Origin: Herbaspirillum robiniae
GTDB taxonomy: Bacteria > Pseudomonadota > Gammaproteobacteria > Burkholderiales > Burkholderiaceae_D
Assembly: GCF_002213415.1 (NCBI RefSeq)
Contig: NZ_NJGU01000001.1
Span: 496,001 to 560,000, forward strand
Direction: 5' to 3'
Length of the DNA stretch: 64,000 nucleotides
A program made the translations under genes and the position numbers. How positions within the stretch are numbered: position 1 is the first letter of the stretch; every line of letters starts with the position of its first letter. Positions 30,306 to 47,060 of this stretch are shown here, in pieces. The notes under the pieces were generated by a model. The model ran no database searches. It was given only the letters and a program-made list of their open reading frames with translations, and was not told where the DNA came from.

Positions 30306-32282
30306 ATGTCGACGCGCAAGAGCAGCAACAAGAACACCCCAAAATCCGCCCCGGCGCCGGGCAAGCATCAACTCCAGGACCTGCTCGATGTGCGTCGCTG
30401 CCTGGACCTGCTGGACAACCGCAAGATCGACGAGGCCAAGGCCTTGTGCGCCAGCGTACTGAGCCGCGCCCCCAATCTCGTCTTCGCCAACAATGCGCGC
30501 GGCCTGATTGCCATGCAGGAAGGGATTTTCAGCGAAGCTGAACTATATCTGCGCAAGGCCGTGGCGGCCGATCCGGGAAACCCCGAATACATTACCAACC
30601 TCGCCAATTCGACCCTCAAGCAGGATCGCATCGAGGACGCCATCAAACTCTATGAACAGGCGATTTCCCTGGACAAGGAAAATCGCGATGCGCGCATCGG
30701 ACTGGCCAACGCCCTGCACGAAAAGAACGATCCCGATGCGACGATCGCCTATTTCGAAGACGCGGTGCGCCGCGAACCCGAAGCCCCCGGCCCGCTTTCG
30801 CACCTGGGACGCGCCCTGATCGAGGCCAAGCGCTACGATGAGGCAGTGGCGACCATCCTCAAATCGCTTGAGCTGCAGATCAATTTCGCCCCCTCGCATA
30901 CCGCCCTGGGCGAGGCCTTCCACGCCATGAAAATGTTCAAGGAGGCCCTGGAATCGCACAAGACGGCGCTGCTGCTGGATCCGCAAGACGTTTATGCGCA
31001 CAACAAGATTGCCGACACCTACATCGAACTCAAGCAAGTAGAACAGGCGCATGAACACTATCAGCGCATCATCGAAATCGCCCCCAAGGATCCGAACAGC
31101 TACATCAAGCTCGCCTCCAGCCTGTTCTCCGCCCTGGATCGCTTCGACGACGCCATGGCCCTGTTCCGGAAGGCGCTGGAGATCGACCCGAAGTATGCGC
31201 TGACCTACAACAACATCGGCGCGATCATGCATGACCACGGAGATACGTGGGAAGCGCTCGACTATCTCTACAAGGCGCTCGAATTGCGCCCCAATTACTT
31301 CACCGCCAAGCACAACCTGGCACTGGCGCAGCTCCTGCACGGAGACCTGAAAGCCGGATGGGAAAGCCATGAGAGTCGCCTGGTCGTTAAAGAGCGCGCA
31401 CATGTCTATCGGCTGATCCACAAACTGTTTGGAATCGTGCCCAAATGGGATGGCAAGTCATCCCTTGCCGGCAAACACATCTTACTGATGCACGAGCAGG
31501 GTTTCGGCGACAGCATCCAATTCCTGCGCTATGTCAGGCTGCTGCAGGAGCAAGGCGCCCGCGTCGCGGTCCACGTCAAGGATCCGCTCTACCGGCTGTT
31601 CCAGTCCCTCACCCCGGAAGTCACCCTGATCCGCGAAAAGGACCCGCTGCCGCCCTGCGACTGCTCCTATGTGCTGATGAGCCTGCCCTATGCACTGGGC
31701 ACGAACACCGTCGACGACATCCCCTCCTACCCTTCATACCTGAAGGCCGATCCGCAGTTGTCGACCATCTGGCAGGAGAAGATTTCGACACTGACGAAGC
31801 ACCCCGACAACCTGCGGGTTGGCATCGTATGGGGTGGCAACCCCGAACACGGCAACGATCGCCGCCGGTCAATGCCCATCGACAACATCTTGCCCTTACT
31901 GCAGATCCCGGGCGTCGAGTTCTATTCGTTGCAAAAGGGCAAGCCGCTGGAAGACCTCAAGGCCCTTCCCCCAGGCAACGTGATCCACAACCTGGGCGAT
32001 GAATGCCAGGACTTTGCCGACACTGCAGCCGCCATCAGCGCCCTCGACCTGGTGATCAGCGTTGACACCTCGGTCGTGCACCTGGCAGGCGCCCTTGGAC
32101 ACCCCACCTGGACGCTCCTGGCCCGCACACCGGACTGGCGCTGGCTGATGGACAGGGAGGACTCGCCCTGGTACCCCAGCATGCGCCTGTTCCGGCAGCC
32201 ATCCGCGGGCGACTGGAAATCCGTCATACAAAAAATGACCCCTGAACTGGCCGCCCTGCGCGATCAAAAGGCGAAGAAATAA
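30306..32282 (+). CDS. TPR protein with C-terminal glycosyltransferase-like (GT-B/heptosyltransferase-type) domain
   Basis: Cytoplasmic 658 residue protein. After a Lys/Ser-rich start, residues about 25-345 contain eight or nine 34-residue tetratricopeptide repeats, recognisable by spaced A..Y/F..A..P such as EALDYLYKALELRPNYFTAKHN. The C-terminal part, about 390-640, looks like a GT9/GT41-style domain: HILLMHEQGFGDSIQFLRYV, VGIVWGGNPEHGNDRRRSMP, VEFYSLQKG, and DLVISVDTSVVHLAGALGHPTW at the nucleotide-sugar site. It is a single gene directly upstream of fliC, bounded by terminators. Position suggests flagellin O-glycosylation; this is inferred, not shown. Confidence 0.8.
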   Translation: MSTRKSSNKNTPKSAPAPGKHQLQDLLDVRRCLDLLDNRKIDEAKALCASVLSRAPNLVFANNARGLIAMQEGIFSEAELYLRKAVAADPGNPEYITNLANSTLKQDRIEDAIKLYEQAISLDKENRDARIGLANALHEKNDPDATIAYFEDAVRREPEAPGPLSHLGRALIEAKRYDEAVATILKSLELQINFAPSHTALGEAFHAMKMFKEALESHKTALLLDPQDVYAHNKIADTYIELKQVEQAHEHYQRIIEIAPKDPNSYIKLASSLFSALDRFDDAMALFRKALEIDPKYALTYNNIGAIMHDHGDTWEALDYLYKALELRPNYFTAKHNLALAQLLHGDLKAGWESHESRLVVKERAHVYRLIHKLFGIVPKWDGKSSLAGKHILLMHEQGFGDSIQFLRYVRLLQEQGARVAVHVKDPLYRLFQSLTPEVTLIREKDPLPPCDCSYVLMSLPYALGTNTVDDIPSYPSYLKADPQLSTIWQEKISTLTKHPDNLRVGIVWGGNPEHGNDRRRSMPIDNILPLLQIPGVEFYSLQKGKPLEDLKALPPGNVIHNLGDECQDFADTAAAISALDLVISVDTSVVHLAGALGHPTWTLLARTPDWRWLMDREDSPWYPSMRLFRQPSAGDWKSVIQKMTPELAALRDQKAKK

Positions 32283-34360: not shown

Positions 34361-36436
34361 ATGGCGACTTCCACCGGCACCATTTCCACCTCGGCAGGTC
34401 CTTTAGACGTTTCCACCCTGGTCAGCCAGCTGATTTCTGCTGAAAGCCAGTCGCAACTGACTCCCCTGACGACCCAGGCGAGCAGCTACAACACCCTGAT
34501 CTCTGCGTACGGCAACCTCAAGAGCGCCCTGTCGACTTATCAGTCGGCCGTCAAAGGCCTGACCGAAGCCAGCTTCAGTTCGCAAAAGAGCTCAGTCAAC
34601 AACGCCGGCACCGGCACCAATCTGACAACCGACCCGTTCACGGCCGACGTCAACAGCGACGCCTCCACCAAGATCGTGGCCCAGAAGATCCAGTCGGCCG
34701 GCATCGCCAGCGGGACCACCTTCAATGCCGGCGACTCCATCGCCATCAAGATCGGCACCAATTCCCCGGTATTCGTTACGCTCCAGGCCAATGCAACGCT
34801 GTCCGGCGTGCGCGATGCAATCAACGCAGCCAGCGCCGGCGTCACTGCCTCCGTCGTCACCGACGGCAGCGGCGATCACCTGGTGCTGGAGTCCAATACC
34901 GGCGGCACCGCCAATACGATCAAGGTCACGGCCAACAACACCCTGTCCGGTTTTGCGTACGATCCCTCGGGTTCGACCCCGAGCACGATGACCCAGACCC
35001 AGGCACCGCGCGATGCGACCAAGGCTGCCTCCGGCACTTATTCGGTGTCGGTGTCGCAACTGGCTCAAACGCAAAAGCTGAGCTCGGCCGGCATCACCCC
35101 TGGCACAACCTTCGAAAACGGTCTGCTGGCGATCAAGACCGGCACCGGCTCGACCACCATCATCAAGCCCGCCACTAACACCCTGCAAGGCGTGCGTGAT
35201 GCAATCAATTCCAGCGACGCCGGCGTCAACGCCACCATCGTCAGCGACGGCACGAACGACCATCTGGTCATTACCGCCAAGGACAGCGGCGCGGCCAACA
35301 CGATCAAGATCACCGGCACCGGCAACTACTCGGTATTCTCGTTCGACCCCAGCGGCTCGGTCACCTCGCCCAACGTGGCCACAGGCCAGACCTACGCTTC
35401 CGGCTCGCTGAGCCTCAAAGTCGGCGACACCACCGTCGCGATCAACCCGACCGACCTGAACAATAGCGGCGCGATTGATCTCAACGACATCATGACGTCG
35501 ATCAACAACGCCAATGCGGGCGTGACCGCCAGCATCAGCAACGACGGCACCAACGACCACCTGGTCCTGACCCCTACCGGCTCCAACGCCACCAGCGCCG
35601 TGTCGCTGACGGGCGCCGGCGACTATTCCGGCCTGACCATGGGCGCGATGGGCCAGTTGCTCAAGGCGCAAGACGCCAAGCTGTCGATTGACGGCGTGGC
35701 CGTGACCAGCCCCAGCAACAAGGTCGAGAACGTGATTTCCGGCGTGACGCTGAACCTTGCCAAGGTGACCACGTCCGCAGACAACTTCACCCTCAACATC
35801 TCGAACGACACCTCGGGCGTGACGACGGCCGCCAACACCTTCGTGTCGGCCTACAATACGCTGGCCAAGGCGATCTCGGACCTGACCAAGCAAACCCCGT
35901 CCACTACGCTGGGCGAATCCACCAACTCCTCGCCGCTGGCCAGCGAATCGTCGGTCCAGACCATTCTGAGCCAGTTGCGCAATACCATGTTCAGCTCGGT
36001 CGACGGCGGCAACGGCATCAGCACGCTGTCCGACATCGGCATTTCCTTCCAGAAGGACGGCACCCTGGCATTGGACGCCACCAAGCTGTCGACCGCCGCC
36101 ACCAATAATTTCGCCGGCATCGCCAACCTCTTCAGCGCGACCGACCCGGACACGACCAACACCACGTCGTCCAAAAATGGTATCGTCACAAAATTGCAGT
36201 CGCTGCTGGACGGCCTGTTGAGCGACAGCGGCCTCATTGCTACCAAGACGAACGGCCTGCAAGCCAGCCTGAAGATCAATCAGGATCGCCAGACTGCGGT
36301 GCAAGCGCGCCTGACGAACATGAAAGACGCGTACACCAACCAGTTCAACCAACTCAACGTTACGCTGGCCAGCATGCAGGCGACGCAAAGCTATCTGACC
36401 CAACAGTTGGCCAACCTGCCGAAGGTTGGCAGCTGA
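34361..36436 (+). CDS. fliD: flagellar filament cap FliD (HAP2), enlarged by three repeat modules
   Basis: Caps the growing filament and folds exported flagellin. At 691 residues it is far longer than the usual 450-480. The N-terminal FliD domain (DVSTLVSQLISAESQSQLTPL) and C-terminal D1/D0 coiled segments (from about residue 480 to QSYLTQQLANLPKVGS) are standard. Between them are three hook-IN-like repeats at about 118-204, 248-332 and 342-428, each with GVTAS/GVNAT..DG..DHLVL followed by an NTIK/SAVS strand. AGGAG precedes the ATG. It is followed by its operon partners fliS and fliT. Confidence 0.95.
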   Translation: MATSTGTISTSAGPLDVSTLVSQLISAESQSQLTPLTTQASSYNTLISAYGNLKSALSTYQSAVKGLTEASFSSQKSSVNNAGTGTNLTTDPFTADVNSDASTKIVAQKIQSAGIASGTTFNAGDSIAIKIGTNSPVFVTLQANATLSGVRDAINAASAGVTASVVTDGSGDHLVLESNTGGTANTIKVTANNTLSGFAYDPSGSTPSTMTQTQAPRDATKAASGTYSVSVSQLAQTQKLSSAGITPGTTFENGLLAIKTGTGSTTIIKPATNTLQGVRDAINSSDAGVNATIVSDGTNDHLVITAKDSGAANTIKITGTGNYSVFSFDPSGSVTSPNVATGQTYASGSLSLKVGDTTVAINPTDLNNSGAIDLNDIMTSINNANAGVTASISNDGTNDHLVLTPTGSNATSAVSLTGAGDYSGLTMGAMGQLLKAQDAKLSIDGVAVTSPSNKVENVISGVTLNLAKVTTSADNFTLNISNDTSGVTTAANTFVSAYNTLAKAISDLTKQTPSTTLGESTNSSPLASESSVQTILSQLRNTMFSSVDGGNGISTLSDIGISFQKDGTLALDATKLSTAATNNFAGIANLFSATDPDTTNTTSSKNGIVTKLQSLLDGLLSDSGLIATKTNGLQASLKINQDRQTAVQARLTNMKDAYTNQFNQLNVTLASMQATQSYLTQQLANLPKVGS

Positions 36437-36466
36437 AGCATCAATCCGCGAACATAGGAGAAAGTC

Positions 36467-36931
36467 ATGTTCGGAAGCATGAAGCGTGGCGCGAACGCCT
36501 ACGCAAACATCGGGGTCGAGACCGGCGTGCTCGCCGCCAGCCCGCACAAGCTGATCAGCATGCTGTTCGACGGCGCGCTGGTGGCCATTGCGCTGGCCAA
36601 GAAATATATGGCCGAAGGCGATATCAAGAACAAGGGCGAGTCCATCACCAAGGCCATCCTCATCATCGACAACGGCTTGCGCGCCAGTTTGAACAAGAAC
36701 GTGGGCGGCGACCTGGCGCTGAACCTGGATTCGCTGTATGAATACATGAGCCGTCGCCTGTTCGAAGCGAACGTGAACAACAATCCCGCCATCCTGACCG
36801 AGATCCACGGCCTGCTGGACGAGATTCGTTCTGCATGGGAGCAGATCGGCCCCAATGCCGCGCCCGCACCGGCGCAGATGTCCGCGACGGCAGCGATGGA
36901 CGCCCTCCAAAACAGCTTTGCGAAAGCCTGA
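36467..36931 (+). CDS. fliS: flagellin export chaperone FliS
   Basis: Cytoplasmic four-helix chaperone that holds the flagellin C-terminus before export. It has 154 residues with characteristic YANIGVETGVLAASPHKLISMLFDGALVAI, the paired helix EGDIKNKGESITKAILIIDNGLRASL and YEYMSRRLFEANVNNN. The Ala/Pro-rich last 25 residues are longer than in E. coli FliS. It is 30 bp after fliD and immediately before fliT. Confidence 0.95.
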   Translation: MFGSMKRGANAYANIGVETGVLAASPHKLISMLFDGALVAIALAKKYMAEGDIKNKGESITKAILIIDNGLRASLNKNVGGDLALNLDSLYEYMSRRLFEANVNNNPAILTEIHGLLDEIRSAWEQIGPNAAPAPAQMSATAAMDALQNSFAKA

Positions 36932-36933
36932 AC

Positions 36934-37263
36934 ATGAACGGTGACCACGTCATCGCCATCTACGAGTCAATCTCCAAATTGACCGACGACATGTTGGCCG
37001 CCGCGCGCGCTGCCGACTGGGACCTGCTGGCCACGCTGGAAGCGCAATGCGGCAAGCACATTGCGAATCTGAAGAATTTTGAAGATAACGTTTCCCTCTC
37101 CGATGCGCATCGCAACCGCAAGGTCGATATCATCAGGAAGATCCTGGAAGACGACCGCGACATCCGGAACCTGACGGAGCCGGGCCTGCGCAAGCTGTCG
37201 GCCCTCATTCAAAGCAACCAGACCGAACAGAAGCTGCTCAATACCTACGGCATGGGTAGCTGA
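36934..37263 (+). CDS. fliT: flagellar export chaperone FliT
   Basis: Small helical chaperone of FliD, 109 residues, also able in enterics to bind FlhDC. It is recognised by size, the fully helical pattern (IAIYESISKLTDDMLAAARAADWDLLATLEAQC) and place directly after fliS. The start ATG at 36934 lies two bases after the fliS stop; a longer frame reading through fliS is a shadow. Sequence conservation in this family is low, so context carries weight. Confidence 0.85.
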   Translation: MNGDHVIAIYESISKLTDDMLAAARAADWDLLATLEAQCGKHIANLKNFEDNVSLSDAHRNRKVDIIRKILEDDRDIRNLTEPGLRKLSALIQSNQTEQKLLNTYGMGS

Positions 37264-37265
37264 TC

Positions 37266-38438
37266 ATGCTGCCGCGGGCCGACATCGCGACCGCCGTCCA
37301 GCCCGTCAATTCAGTCGAGGCGGCAACTGCGGTCGTTTCAGTCGCCGACACCAAGCAGGAAGCCTTCAGCCGCCTGGCGCAGATCGCCATCGGGCAGCAG
37401 ATGGCCGGGCGCATTCTCTCCACGTTCAATGACGGCACCTACCTGGTGCGCATCGCCAATACGGCCGCGCGCATGGTGCTGCCGGCCAATGCCCGCACGG
37501 GCGACTCCCTGATCCTGACGCTGGTATCGAAAGATCCCCGCCCTACCTTTGCCGTCAAGGAAGGCAGCCTGCGCCCGGACGAGGAAAGCGCCGCGGTATC
37601 GCTGAGCAAGGCCGGCAAGGCCATGCAGAAGGACCTGAAGTCGCTGGAGTTCGTCACCCGCGACGGCGCCGGCCAGATTGCCGAAAATGAAGAAATCCCG
37701 GTCGACGCCCAAGCCAAGGGACGCCAGGCGCAGTCGAACAGCCCTTCCAGCACCACCACCACGCTGAGCAACGCCGGCAAGCTGATCGACAGCCTGCTGC
37801 AGGCCTCGCAGCAGGGCAACGTCGCCAACCACGTCAGCTCCCCCGCCGCCCTGCTACCCAAGCCCGGCATGCCGACCGACCAGATGGCCAACGCCCTGCA
37901 TGACGCCATCACCTACAGCGGCGTTTTCTACGAGTCGCACGTCTCTGCCTGGGCCGAAGGACGGCGCCCGGCCGAGGAGCTCATGAAGGAGCCGCAGGCC
38001 CAGGTCGGCCGCCAGAACGGCGGCGACGTCAACCTGCTGAGCCAGAACGATCCCGCGCAAAGCCAGCTCGGCCAGATCATCAACCTGCAGTTGAATGCGC
38101 TCGAGCAACAGCGCCTGGTCTGGCACGGCGAAGTCTGGCCGGGCCAGCAGATGGAATGGGAAATCAACCAGGAACACGGGGACGGCAAGCAACAGACGCC
38201 GGATGGCGAACCGACCCCGCCGACCTGGCAAAGCGTGGTGCGCTTCAACTTCGCCCATCTTGGCAGCGTATCGGCCACGATCCGCCTGATCGGCGAGCAG
38301 ATCCACGTCCAGGTCAAGGCCGACAATGAAACCGCCACCGCCGCCTTGCGCGGCAACACCGCCATGTTCGCCGACGCCATGTCGGCCGCCGGCACTTCTC
38401 TGGACTCGCTGATCGTCAAGCAAGATGGAGAAGCCTAA
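37266..38438 (+). CDS. second FliK-like hook-length-control domain protein
   Basis: 390 residues. The C-terminal 150 residues resemble the FliK C-terminal domain: LQLNALEQQRLVWHGEVWPGQQMEWEI, VRFNFAHLGSVSATIRLIGEQIHVQVKADN and ALRGNTAMFADAMSAAGTSLDSLIV. The N-terminal half is Ala/Ser-rich and probably flexible. It starts 2 bp after fliT and overlaps the next gene (FlhB C-domain) by 14 bp, so the two are coupled. The canonical FliK is encoded separately at 45798. A ruler or switch role with the small FlhB-like protein is inferred. Confidence 0.78.
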   Translation: MLPRADIATAVQPVNSVEAATAVVSVADTKQEAFSRLAQIAIGQQMAGRILSTFNDGTYLVRIANTAARMVLPANARTGDSLILTLVSKDPRPTFAVKEGSLRPDEESAAVSLSKAGKAMQKDLKSLEFVTRDGAGQIAENEEIPVDAQAKGRQAQSNSPSSTTTTLSNAGKLIDSLLQASQQGNVANHVSSPAALLPKPGMPTDQMANALHDAITYSGVFYESHVSAWAEGRRPAEELMKEPQAQVGRQNGGDVNLLSQNDPAQSQLGQIINLQLNALEQQRLVWHGEVWPGQQMEWEINQEHGDGKQQTPDGEPTPPTWQSVVRFNFAHLGSVSATIRLIGEQIHVQVKADNETATAALRGNTAMFADAMSAAGTSLDSLIVKQDGEA

Positions 38439-38769
38439 CATCCCCCTGCAGAATGCGGTCGCGCTCGCCTACAACGCCAGCAAAGCCGCCCCCACCGTCG
38501 TGGCCAAGGGCAGCGGCCTGGTCGCGGAGGCCATCATTGCGCGCGCGCGTGAAAGCGGCGTCTATGTCCATGAATCAAAGGAGCTCGTTTCGCTGCTGAT
38601 GCAGGTCGAACTGGACCAGCAAATTCCCCCGGCGTTGTATCGCACCGTCGCAGAACTATTGGCTTGGTTATATCGTATTGAAAATATGCAATTAGCTGAG
38701 CCAGTAATGTATGATACGGGGTTAAATTACATAAAAAATTCCTCCGGGGAAGGCGATCCAATTCGCTGA
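38425..38769 (+). CDS. stand-alone FlhB C-terminal-domain protein (FhlB-type)
   Basis: 114 residue soluble protein equivalent to the cytoplasmic half of the export-gate switch FlhB. AVALAYNASK aligns with the strand after the NPTH autocleavage site, then APTVVAKGSGLVAEAIIARARESGVYVHESKELVSLLMQV, and LDQQIPPALYRTVAELLAWLYRI. The chain begins where the cleaved fragment of FlhB would begin, and NPTH itself is absent (PLQN). It overlaps the FliK-like gene. Its last 110 bp are strikingly AT-rich compared with the surroundings. Full-length FlhB is not in the window. Confidence 0.88.
   Translation: MEKPNIPLQNAVALAYNASKAAPTVVAKGSGLVAEAIIARARESGVYVHESKELVSLLMQVELDQQIPPALYRTVAELLAWLYRIENMQLAEPVMYDTGLNYIKNSSGEGDPIR
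38732..38759 (+). promoter_or_regulatory. possible weak sigma-28 site before the PilZ gene
   Basis: TAAA (38732-38735), 16 nt, then GGCGATCC (38752-38759), 5 of 8 to the consensus -10; AAAA with N15 also fits. It lies 32 bp before the PilZ gene, inside an AT-rich segment. Enteric ycgR is sigma-28 controlled, which motivates the call. Confidence 0.25.
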
Positions 38770-38791
38770 ATTCGACGTACACGACGCACAG

Positions 38792-39547
38792 ATGGCAACT
38801 CAGAACCAGACCGACGACGACAGCCCATTCCGGGTTCATTCACGGAGGGAGATCGTTTCCCTGCTCACCAGCATGATGGAAAAGAATCAGCTGCTGAGCC
38901 TGCTGATCAAAGGCGGGTCGGAATCCGTCATCACGTCGATTCTCGAAGTCGACGAAGATGATGGCGCGCTCATCATCGACGCCGCCCCCAGCACGATGCT
39001 CAACGAGAGCATCGTCGCCAGCAACCGCATTGCCTTCGAAGCGCTGTACAACAGCATCCGCATCACCTTCGTGGTCGACAAGGCGCGCAAGGTGGAATAC
39101 CAGAACCGCCCGGCGCTGCGGATCGACATCCCCGCCAGCCTGGTTCGCCTGCAACGCCGCGAATACTTCCGCATTCCGACGCCGATCGCCAAGCCGCTGC
39201 GCTGCACCTTCCGCATTACCCAGCCGGACGGCTCCTTCATCACCATCGTCACCCTGCTCAACAACATCAGCGCGGGCGGCGTGGGCATCACCGATGAAAA
39301 GAAGATCCTGCCGACCACCCAGGGCGTGATCTATGAAGATTGCCAGCTGGAACTGAGCGACAACACCCTGGTATCGGTCAAGCTGCAGATCCGCGACTGC
39401 AAGGAATTCAAGATGACCAACGGCAAGACGGTCAACCGCTTCGGCTGCCAGTTCATCGATATCCCGCGCGCGGTACTGGGCGCCATCCAGCGCTTCATCA
39501 CCAAGCTGGAACGCGAACAGAACGCCAAGGCCTCCGGCATGATGTGA
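38792..39547 (+). CDS. ycgR: flagellar brake protein, YcgR/PilZ c-di-GMP receptor
   Basis: Binds cyclic-di-GMP and then slows or biases the flagellar motor through FliG/MotA. It has 251 residues: an N-terminal YcgR domain (residues 12-110), then a PilZ domain. Both ligand motifs are intact: RxxxR as Arg123 and Arg127 in LQRREYFRIPTP, and N/DxSxxG as Asn158, Ser160 and Gly163 in NNISAGGVG. It is last in the fliD-to-PilZ series and followed by a terminator. The motif preservation makes c-di-GMP binding likely. Confidence 0.93.
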   Translation: MATQNQTDDDSPFRVHSRREIVSLLTSMMEKNQLLSLLIKGGSESVITSILEVDEDDGALIIDAAPSTMLNESIVASNRIAFEALYNSIRITFVVDKARKVEYQNRPALRIDIPASLVRLQRREYFRIPTPIAKPLRCTFRITQPDGSFITIVTLLNNISAGGVGITDEKKILPTTQGVIYEDCQLELSDNTLVSVKLQIRDCKEFKMTNGKTVNRFGCQFIDIPRAVLGAIQRFITKLEREQNAKASGMM

Positions 39548-39570
39548 GCCCGGCGCTCCGTCAACAAAAC

Positions 39571-39597
39571 AAAAAGCCCGCAATCGCGGGCTTTTTT
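39571..39597. terminator. bidirectional terminator between PilZ gene and fliE
   Basis: 11 bp stem AAAAAGCCCGC / GCGGGCTTTTT with loop AATC, with T-runs both ways between convergent genes. Confidence 0.92.
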
Positions 39598-39686
39598 GCT
39601 GCAAGATCGTTGCACCTACAGCAACAAAATCTCTTCAAGAGAACTGCCGACGCCACCTTGGCGAAGGAATTCCGAAATAAATTCGA

Positions 39687-40043
39687 TCACACCTGCATTG
39701 TCATGATGTCGCGATAAGCGGACACCAGCTTGTTGCGCACCTGGATGCTGGTCTGGAAGGAAATGCTGGCCTTCTGCGAAGCAATCATCACGTCCGACAG
39801 GTTGATGTTGTCGTCACCCATGGCAAAGGCCTGCGACATCTTCGAGGCTTGCTGCTGGGAATCATTGACGTTGTCGATCGCGCCTTTCAGCACATCGGCA
39901 AAATCCACCCGCGGCGCGGCCTTTTCGGCCTTGACGCCGGCCTGGACCGGATCGACCGCGCCCTGCGCCCGCGCTGCCGCAGCCTTCAGCTGCGCCACCA
40001 TTGCCTCAATCCTGCTGGTATCAATTACACTCTCGATTGCCAT
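39687..40043 (-). CDS. fliE: flagellar MS ring-rod junction protein FliE
   Basis: Connects the MS ring to the proximal rod and helps open the export gate. It has 118 residues. A variable N-terminus is followed by the conserved FADVLKGAIDNVNDSQQQASKMSQAFAMGDDNINLSDVMIASQKASISFQTSIQVRNKLVSAYRDIMTMQV, which ends in the standard FliE C-terminus. The ribosome site is GAGGTAGGA. It is transcribed divergently from fliF, an arrangement common in this group. Confidence 0.96.
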   Translation of the reverse strand: MAIESVIDTSRIEAMVAQLKAAAARAQGAVDPVQAGVKAEKAAPRVDFADVLKGAIDNVNDSQQQASKMSQAFAMGDDNINLSDVMIASQKASISFQTSIQVRNKLVSAYRDIMTMQV

Positions 40044-45797: not shown

Positions 45798-47060
45798 ATG
45801 AATACATCCCTGCCGCTGCTGAACGTGATCACCGGCTCCCAGGCCGCCAACGGTTCGCGCTCGTCCAATCCGGCCGACAGCTTCAGCGCCGATGTGCCGT
45901 TCAACCAGGTCCTCAACAGCCAGGTCAGCAACCGCAACAGCGAAAACCAGTCGCAGGACAAGCAGCGCGCCGCCGACCAGACGGCGCAGCCCAGCCAGCC
46001 TGCGCAAAGCGCTGCCAACGGCAGCAAGCCCGCCTCCACCGACTCGGCCCAGAAAAAGCAGGATGCCGACAAGGACGACGACCAGGCCGACGACGACGGC
46101 ACCGCCACCCAAGCCTCGGCCGAACTGCTGGCGCTGGTAGCCAACCTCGAGCAGAACGCCGTCAAGCCGGTCACCAGCGGCAAGGGCGAAGATACCGACG
46201 CCGACCTGCTGGCCCAGGCCAAGCGCAGCGGTCCGCAGCTTTCGCTCAAGGGCGACGACCAGCCGCTGGCGCTGGACGGCAAGGACAAGAAGATCGATTT
46301 CGCCGCCCTGCAAAGCAGCGTCAACGCCAAGAAGGAAGCGGCGCCCGACCTGGCGCAGCAGCAAACGTCCGACGCAGCGGCGCGCGCCGCCAAGAGCGAC
46401 AAGCCGGCGATCGATGTCTCCGCCGACGCCAAGACCGCGCCCAAGGACGACGCCGGCGCATTGAGCGCCCGCGCCCAGGCCGCCAAGCTCGCCCCCGAGA
46501 TGACCATGGTCAAGCAGGATGCGCCGCAGGCCACACCGGTTCCGGTCGTCATGCCCGCCATGCAGCAGGCGCTCGCCGCCAACCAGACGCAGGCCGTGTT
46601 CGGCGCCGCCTATAGCGACAAGATCCAGCCCAACGTCGGCAGCGCCGGCTGGGACCAGGCCGTCGGCCAGAAGGTGACCTGGATGGTCAGCGGCGGTATC
46701 CAGAGCGCTTCGTTGACGCTCAATCCGCCCGACCTCGGTCCGATGCAGGTGGTGCTTTCCGTGCACAACCAGCAAGCCGACGCCACCTTCATCACCGCCC
46801 AGCCCGAAGTGAAGCAGGCGCTGGAAGCGGCCATGCCCAAGCTGCGCGAAATGATGGAACAGGCCGGCATCCAGCTCGGCCAAGCCACCGTCAATACCGG
46901 CATGCCCAACCAGCAGCAGAACGCCAACGGCCAGCAGGCGCGCGGCAGCTCTTCGCGCGGCACCTTCGGCAAGGATGACGAGGACGACGTCGCCATCGCG
47001 GCTGCGGGCGCCGCCACCGTCACCCAGAGCGGCGTCGGACTGGTGGACACCTTCGTCTGA
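45798..47060 (+). CDS. fliK: flagellar hook-length control protein FliK
   Basis: Secreted molecular ruler that switches export specificity at FlhB. It has 420 residues. The first 260 are low-complexity (Ala, Asp, Gln, Lys, Ser) and probably extended. The C-terminal domain has the hallmark ASLTLNPPDLGPMQVVLSVHNQQADATFITAQPEVKQALEAAMPKLREMMEQAGIQLGQATV, followed by a Gln/Asn/Gly-rich tail. It is last of the fliF-fliK run; a sigma-28 promoter follows for fliL. Confidence 0.95.
   Translation: MNTSLPLLNVITGSQAANGSRSSNPADSFSADVPFNQVLNSQVSNRNSENQSQDKQRAADQTAQPSQPAQSAANGSKPASTDSAQKKQDADKDDDQADDDGTATQASAELLALVANLEQNAVKPVTSGKGEDTDADLLAQAKRSGPQLSLKGDDQPLALDGKDKKIDFAALQSSVNAKKEAAPDLAQQQTSDAAARAAKSDKPAIDVSADAKTAPKDDAGALSARAQAAKLAPEMTMVKQDAPQATPVPVVMPAMQQALAANQTQAVFGAAYSDKIQPNVGSAGWDQAVGQKVTWMVSGGIQSASLTLNPPDLGPMQVVLSVHNQQADATFITAQPEVKQALEAAMPKLREMMEQAGIQLGQATVNTGMPNQQQNANGQQARGSSSRGTFGKDDEDDVAIAAAGAATVTQSGVGLVDTFV

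Follow-up and report, generated by a model that had tools for sequence, protein, structure and literature searches.

A conserved gene pair encoding a second FliK-like protein and a free FlhB C-terminal domain, and its possible role in flagellar export

The fliK2-flhB2 locus of Herbaspirillum robiniae and the anatomy of its products

The window analyzed here is a stretch of 64,000 nucleotides of Herbaspirillum robiniae contig NZ_NJGU01000001.1, from a genome of 5.5 Mb in 31 contigs. Its genes of interest are arranged in the order flagellin, flaG, fliD, fliS, fliT, fliK2, flhB2 and ycgR, which are followed by a palindrome and then by fliE on the opposite strand. A plus-strand open reading frame of 658 amino acids (30306-32279) lies upstream of the flagellin gene. 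The features considered in this work are as follows, with positions given in the window and amino acids abbreviated as aa.

34361..36436, plus strand: fliD (PF07195 and PF02465)
36467..36931, plus strand: fliS (PF02561, 129.7 bits)
36934..37263, plus strand: fliT, 2 nt upstream of fliK2 (PF05400, 87.5 bits, scored on a longer frame from 36835)
37266..38438, plus strand: fliK2, second FliK-like protein, 390 aa (open reading frame; PF02120, 51.2 bits; AlphaFold2 model; orthologue alignments A2 and A4)
37398..37556, plus strand: predicted OB-like five-strand barrel at the N terminus of FliK2, aa 45-97 (AlphaFold2 model)
37761..38015, plus strand: central helical region of FliK2, aa 166-250 (model helices)
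37917..37934, plus strand: motif SGVFYE, FliK2 aa 218-223 (alignments A5 and A4)
38211..38429, plus strand: FliK C-terminal (T3S4) switch domain, FliK2 aa 316-388 (PF02120 match)
38425..38769, plus strand: flhB2, free FlhB C-terminal domain, 114 aa (PF01312 positions 258-335; TIGR00789, 87.3 bits; alignment to 3b0z and 36hu)
38425..38438, plus strand: overlap of fliK2 and flhB2, 14 nt (open reading frame coordinates)
38488..38493, plus strand: A22-P23 of FlhB2, aligned with Salmonella FlhB A286-P287
38650..38661, plus strand: A76 and L79 of FlhB2, aligned with Salmonella FlhB A341 and L344
38792..39547, plus strand: ycgR-type flagellar brake, the gene downstream of flhB2 (PF07317 and PF07238)
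39571..39596, no strand assigned: palindrome after ycgR (terminator-like, minus-strand call only, 11 pairs)
45798..47060, plus strand: canonical fliK (fliK1), before fliL (PF02120, 91 bits)

The open reading frames and the Pfam matches agree with the original prediction that a second protein with a FliK C-terminal domain is coupled, through a 14-nt overlap, to a free FlhB C-terminal domain of 114 aa, and the canonical FliK placed by that prediction at 45798-47060 is confirmed by its PF02120 score. This canonical gene takes the slot between fliJ and fliL, outside of which fliK2 is located. The genome has a single full-length FlhB, which is encoded outside the window (C14:571131-572150). A third, weak PF02120 match, at 27 bits below the cut-off, falls in a 172-aa frame on contig 4 (within locus L005, C4:75047-78169); it was rejected by eye as a third FliK and resembles a DUF721/DciA protein. 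The region 36400-39800 contains six terminator-like patterns compared with 4.3 expected in shuffled sequences, and the palindrome after ycgR is a possible end of the transcription unit. A search of the same region for a sigma-70-like promoter pattern found none.

In sequence, the likeness of FliK2 to FliK is limited to the switch domain, where PF02120 (Flg_hook) matches aa 316-388 with 51.2 bits (cut-off 29.8). An NCBIfam search with FliK2 matched no family. The AlphaFold2 model confidently predicts the N-terminal OB-like barrel, and it places helices at aa 169-181, 204-216, 222-230 and 243-250 of the central region, which, predicted jointly with the hairpin that follows, gave no match at E 0.001 or better. 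Within the SGVFYE motif of this region, S218, G219 and E223 are invariant in the 32 rows of alignment A5, and G219 and E223 reach 90% or more in the 51-row alignment A4. FliK2 thus has the C-terminal switch domain in common with canonical FliK and with injectisome rulers such as PscP, but it differs from them in its predicted OB-like barrel, its helical SGxFYE module, its position outside fliJ-fliL and its coupling to a free FlhB tail. The description of FliK2 as ruler-like was not upheld, since the similarity covers the switch domain only and the N terminus is predicted to be an OB-like barrel; together with the conserved SGxFYE center, this leaves the label "ruler" unproven.

FlhB2 matches PF01312 at positions 258-335 only (68.5 bits; cut-off 24.4), and it has neither the N-terminal membrane domain nor the NPTH autocleavage site of an FlhB gate subunit. 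The predicted absence of NPTH from FlhB2 holds, and an NPxH-like motif was found in none of the 136 entries for free FlhB C-terminal domains (free tails). An NP dipeptide is present just upstream of the domain start in 41/41 full-length FlhB sequences compared with 6 of 135 free tails, in which it was sought within seven residues. In the sequence alignment, P7 of FlhB2 corresponds to P270 of Salmonella FlhB, before which we take the cleavage of the Salmonella protein to fall. FlhB2 had been predicted to begin where cleaved FlhB begins; its start is indeed near this point, but as P7 aligns with P270, Met1 lies about 6 residues earlier. The last third of flhB2 (38641-38769) is AT-rich, with 42% GC compared with 63% for the window, and this tail is not conserved.

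With the C-terminal cytoplasmic domain of FlhB (3b0z, 3b1s), FlhB2 shares the domain itself and the aligned pocket positions, but it differs in being a separate soluble product, in lacking NPTH, and in the segment PPLARALY of full FlhB, which in the alignment is replaced by P-(E/D)-L-V-x-L-L in free tails. Conservation was tabulated from 135 free-tail rows, two of which are repeats, and 22 full-length FlhB sequences. Among the free-tail rows, the alanine at A22 is conserved at 0.90, and P23, A76 and L79 are each conserved at 1.00. We assume that the corresponding A286, P287, A341 and L344 line the subunit-binding pocket of Salmonella FlhB, for which Evans et al. in 2013 are reportedly the source. 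In the accessible part of PMC8983047, gate-recognition motifs are described to bind a hydrophobic pocket on FlhB-C, and a text search for A286 and L344 in this paper found neither.

The retention of the four positions in nearly all free tails, together with this pocket binding, is consistent with a docking chaperone, in which cytosolic FlhB2 would bind the gate-recognition motif of unchaperoned rod or hook subunits and FliK2 would load or unload it. The same residues may, however, be conserved merely as part of the fold core; we regard this role as rather unlikely. Equally doubtful in our estimation is a decoy function, whereby FlhB2 would titrate canonical FliK, or FliK2 would shield the tail of the gate, so that the switch is delayed and FlhB2 never enters the gate. 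Such a function would make use of the fact that both halves of the known contact between FliK-C and the FlhB tail exist as a separate pair, but it does not account for the retention of the pocket positions, the conservation of the OB-like barrel or the SGxFYE module.

Conservation of the pairing

A FliK-C frame lies directly upstream of the free tail, on the same strand, in 118 of the 136 free-tail entries and in 116 of the 133 distinct loci; these proportions are rates among free tails and not among all bacteria, because loci were picked as the best free-tail matches. The distinct loci result from merging three pairs of entries with identical DNA (L006/L036, which represent the window, L012/L108 and L052/L067). 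Two additional free tails (L008 and L030), both with a partner, were kept outside the count of 136, as each has an open frame longer than 300 aa. The pair spans eight phyla. Given an adjacent FliK-like gene in 118/136 entries, the pairing is not a matter of chance. The original prediction had staked its case in part on a conserved pairing across genomes, and in this survey of co-occurrence the pairing is kept.

Among 80 genomes of the order to which the window belongs, 57 have any match to FlhB2, comprising 51 with a free tail and 6 with full-length FlhB only, according to a count by hand. In the best 30 loci of this order, one of which is the window itself, a FliK2-like frame was identified directly upstream in every case (phmmer). 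The best 30 loci from 200 genomes of the phylum include 21 adjacent pairs. Named genomes were scanned as well, and the 80 loci with the best matches were retained; 78 of these are free tails, of which 70 are paired, and two are full-length FlhB proteins (L107 and L126). The fliK2 and flhB2 genes overlap in 70 of the 112 loci for which a start was found, the commonest spacings being an overlap of 4 nt (17/112) and the 14-nt overlap also present in the window (16/112).

Two of the 118 pairs depend on weak FliK-C matches (L097, E 0.001; L143, E 0.002). When ten upstream proteins from several phyla were compared with PF02120, four passed the cut-off, three scored below it, and three (L097, L121 and L143) were unmatched. 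The upstream protein of L121 has a barrel-like N terminus by eye and no Pfam match, and this locus is among the 18 entries without an adjacent FliK-like gene (L026, L044, L046-L049, L051, L052, L055, L056, L066, L067, L070, L075, L079, L089, L121 and L130). Of these, L079 and L130 start near a contig edge. For seven of the nine unpaired loci within L036-L065 (genomes G349, G245, G217, G269, G206, G229 and G249), the C-terminal part of a FliK profile has a match on the contig of the free tail, at a distance of about 4-12 kb, and these matches may represent canonical FliK. In L026, the FliK2-like frame is split across two frames. A single open frame in this locus (L026:559-1464) contains both the FliK-C and the FlhB-tail domains, which is probably the result of a frameshift or assembly fault and possibly a fusion.

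Relatives, gene order and the link to the flagellum

A single branch separates 87 free tails from 41 full-length tails with a support of 99/95 and in 98% of 200 bootstrap trees, and the same branch has a support of 83/98 (84%) when copies from Bacillus, Clostridia, Pseudomonas and Cupriavidus are added; both trees are built on 83-84 columns only, with the free rows thinned from 135 to 87 and then to 74, and in both the bootstrap remained unsettled. In the second tree, the five rows nearest to the FlhB2 of the window are two from the order to which the window belongs, a Betaproteobacteria bin, Noviherbaspirillum (L145) and Undibacterium (L098), as would be expected of a betaproteobacterium in the Burkholderiales.

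Members of the YlqH/FlhX/HP1575 family (TIGR00789, flhB_rel), which we take to be COG2257, likewise consist of a free FlhB C-terminal domain without the membrane part and without NPTH. The score of the window FlhB2 (87.3 bits) is below the model cut-off of 117.35, compared with 123 for the Bacillus free tail found in the place of YlqH, which falls on the same side of the branch between free and full-length tails. Among other free tails, that of Sulfurihydrogenibium passes with 120.2, and L076 (110.8), L054 (94.6) and the Pseudomonas copy (72.7) fail. The tree nevertheless places FlhB2 among the YlqH/FlhX free tails, despite its score under the curated cut-off.

The tail thus represents known YlqH/FlhX proteins, and it is the partner FliK2 that is poorly described. 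In the accessible parts of surveys of Actinobacteria and Campylobacterota flagella (PMC10746217, PMC9321776), FlhX is included but listed by itself, and a Nitratiruptor "flhX-fliK" is named in passing (PMC9321776). A literature search that covered mainly open-access papers returned no title or abstract opening about the fliK2-flhB2 pair.

Copies from Bacillus, Pseudomonas, Acetoanaerobium and Cupriavidus were obtained from a search of plasmid records. In Bacillus velezensis NZ_CP083716.1, the gene order is ylqF, ribonuclease HII, a gene for a 567-aa protein, the free tail and sucC, with sucCD as neighbors. The free tail, annotated as "FlhB-like flagellar biosynthesis protein", overlaps the preceding gene by 4 nt, and the two genes presumably occupy the place of ylqG-ylqH, the 567-aa protein being, on our assumption from the gene name, YlqG. 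This protein resembles FliK2 in its position, the 4-nt overlap, a barrel-like N terminus by eye and a weak FliK-C match (E 5.9e-4, and E 2.9e-6 with a cross-phylum FliK2 profile, among the frames of four loci), but it differs in its length and in having no match to PF02120 at E 0.5. The record annotates its gene (L186:3298-5001) as "glycosyl transferase" yet it matches the FliK2 profile, and this name is likely wrong.

In a Pseudomonas aeruginosa record, a 492-aa protein annotated as FliK (PF02120, 67.4 bits) overlaps by 4 nt with a 111-aa FlhB-tail protein, and the pair adjoins cytochrome c maturation (ccm) genes. This record is a 180-kb "plasmid" (NZ_CP133752.1, 142536-152769; L188), of which the stretch with the ccm genes and the pair looks chromosomal. 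Acetoanaerobium and Cupriavidus metallidurans records also contain a FliK-C frame upstream of a free tail. Three chromosome-sized Escherichia coli records gave a single match apiece at E 1e-5 or better, which corresponds to the annotated flhB; a free copy was thus not seen in these records.

In 30 of the 70 paired named loci, fliS is located 1.7-2.6 kb upstream of the pair, usually with fliD and sometimes with fliT detected as well. Elsewhere, the flagellar genes found some way from the pair are fliM/fliN in Hydrogenedentota and in one uncultured bacterium, fliL in Nitrospinota, and flgI in a Syntrophaceae and a "Deltaproteobacteria" bin, and the Sulfurihydrogenibium pair comes after apparent ribosomal-protein and rpoA genes, as judged by eye. 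In the remaining paired named loci, a search with the proteins of the window, which distant relatives and short loci may escape, detected no flagellar gene. The position of the pair in the window had suggested a second specificity switch, perhaps dedicated to the filament-cap stage and tied to fliD-fliS-fliT, and the 30 loci share this position after fliS. All 30 loci, however, are titled betaproteobacteria or "Proteobacteria bacterium", and the pair is sited elsewhere in other phyla, in Bacillus and in Pseudomonas, though the free tails are all on one side of the branch; the proposal therefore fits the betaproteobacterial gene order only, and we consider it very unlikely.

The occurrence of free tails is associated with that of the flagellar FlhB. 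In Nitrospirota, a free tail accompanies full FlhB in 39 of 79 genomes, compared with 0 of the 38 genomes without full FlhB (Fisher P 3.4e-9, ignoring relatedness); this set contained 118 genomes, for which 95% completeness was asked, and its center, G370, was left out. Many flagellated genomes lack the pair (40/79 in Nitrospirota), so it is not essential to the flagellum. In the order of the window, 51/51 genomes with a free tail have at least one further match to FlhB2. With the FliK2 profile, eight genomes without FlhB2 were unmatched (three) or gave a short C-terminal match only, as canonical FliK would (five). Among four genomes with FlhB2, the profile matched strongly over its full length in two, partially beside the free tail in one, and in G152 at the C terminus only, about 4 kb away; as above, these comparisons take genomes without regard to relatedness.

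A free tail is present in all 24 of the genomes reached through named loci, which contain two PF02120 matches (15 genomes), one (7) or none (2). Four of them (G370, G377, G378 and G381) have neither FlhA nor full FlhB, exceptions that may reflect gaps in draft bins. A non-flagellar role, or a relic, is the least probable reading, for although these 4/24 genomes and the Bacillus neighbors ylqF, ribonuclease HII and sucCD could be taken to indicate it, a free tail is absent from all 38 Nitrospirota genomes without full FlhB (G370 apart), and the further match accompanies the free tail throughout the order of the window.

A possible role of the pair at the export gate

Our preferred reading, to which we assign a probability of only about 0.4, is that fliK2 and flhB2 work as a single unit, an ancient accessory pair of the flagellum that supplies or withholds an exchangeable FlhB tail. 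Similar adjoining pairs in many distantly related bacteria indicate that the pair is probably old, and it is probably an overlooked part of the hook-to-filament switch. FlhB2 would reproduce the cleaved FlhB tail in soluble form, FliK2 would combine a FliK switch domain with a preceding OB-like barrel and helical SGxFYE module, and the Bacillus counterpart of the pair would be YlqG-YlqH, with YlqH in the family also called FlhX. The overlap of the genes suggests that both proteins would be made together by translational coupling. The switch domain of FliK2 would then hold FlhB2, in the manner in which FliK-C is believed to contact the tail of FlhB at the gate, and the resulting complex would give an exchangeable FlhB tail to the FlhB stub at the export gate, or withhold it. 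In this way it could tune the duration of the early (rod/hook) mode, or refill a gate that has lost its tail too soon.

By its title, a paper by Wand et al. from 2006 reportedly describes the free tail HP1575 of Helicobacter pylori as a "spare part" that allows export after deletion of the FlhB tail. This support would come by analogy from another lineage. For Salmonella, the accessible part of a 2026 study (PMC13344023) describes that FlhB keeps its tail during early assembly and secretion and loses it in a FliK-dependent manner at hook completion to give the late mode, and that early export fails when the tail is absent. The earlier view of FlhB2 as a mimic of the already switched fragment has to be revised in the light of these data: as loss of the tail gives the late mode, a free tail resembles a part of the early mode or the ejected piece. 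From the Salmonella results (PMC13344023), the title of Wand et al. and the anatomy of both proteins, we infer that FliK2 and FlhB2 form a soluble complex. What the data show is the conserved pairing, its association with a flagellar FlhB and the domain composition of the two proteins, with the cleavage motif lost, the pocket positions kept and the N terminus of FliK2 folded in the model; a contact between FliK2 and FlhB2, docking of FlhB2 at the gate and an effect on switching are proposed.

An extension of this proposal is a reversible switch, in which FliK2 would bring FlhB2 to a gate with an ejected tail, reload it and thereby restore rod/hook export. It might serve the repair or rebuilding of flagella, and we consider it improbable. 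If it proves true, the irreversible switch of Salmonella would be a special case, in a lineage without the pair.

In conclusion, the transition of the flagellar export gate from hook to filament subunits is a long-standing question, on which there is detailed work in Salmonella. Across the genome sets of this survey, soluble copies of both halves of this switch are kept adjacent to one another in several phyla, Bacillus and Pseudomonas included, in both of which genes are routinely deleted. If the fliK2-flhB2 pair acts on the gate, it would account for the YlqH/FlhX family, which is known from annotation, and for a partner that is sometimes misnamed, as in the Bacillus record, and it would provide a direct handle on the exchangeability of the FlhB tail.
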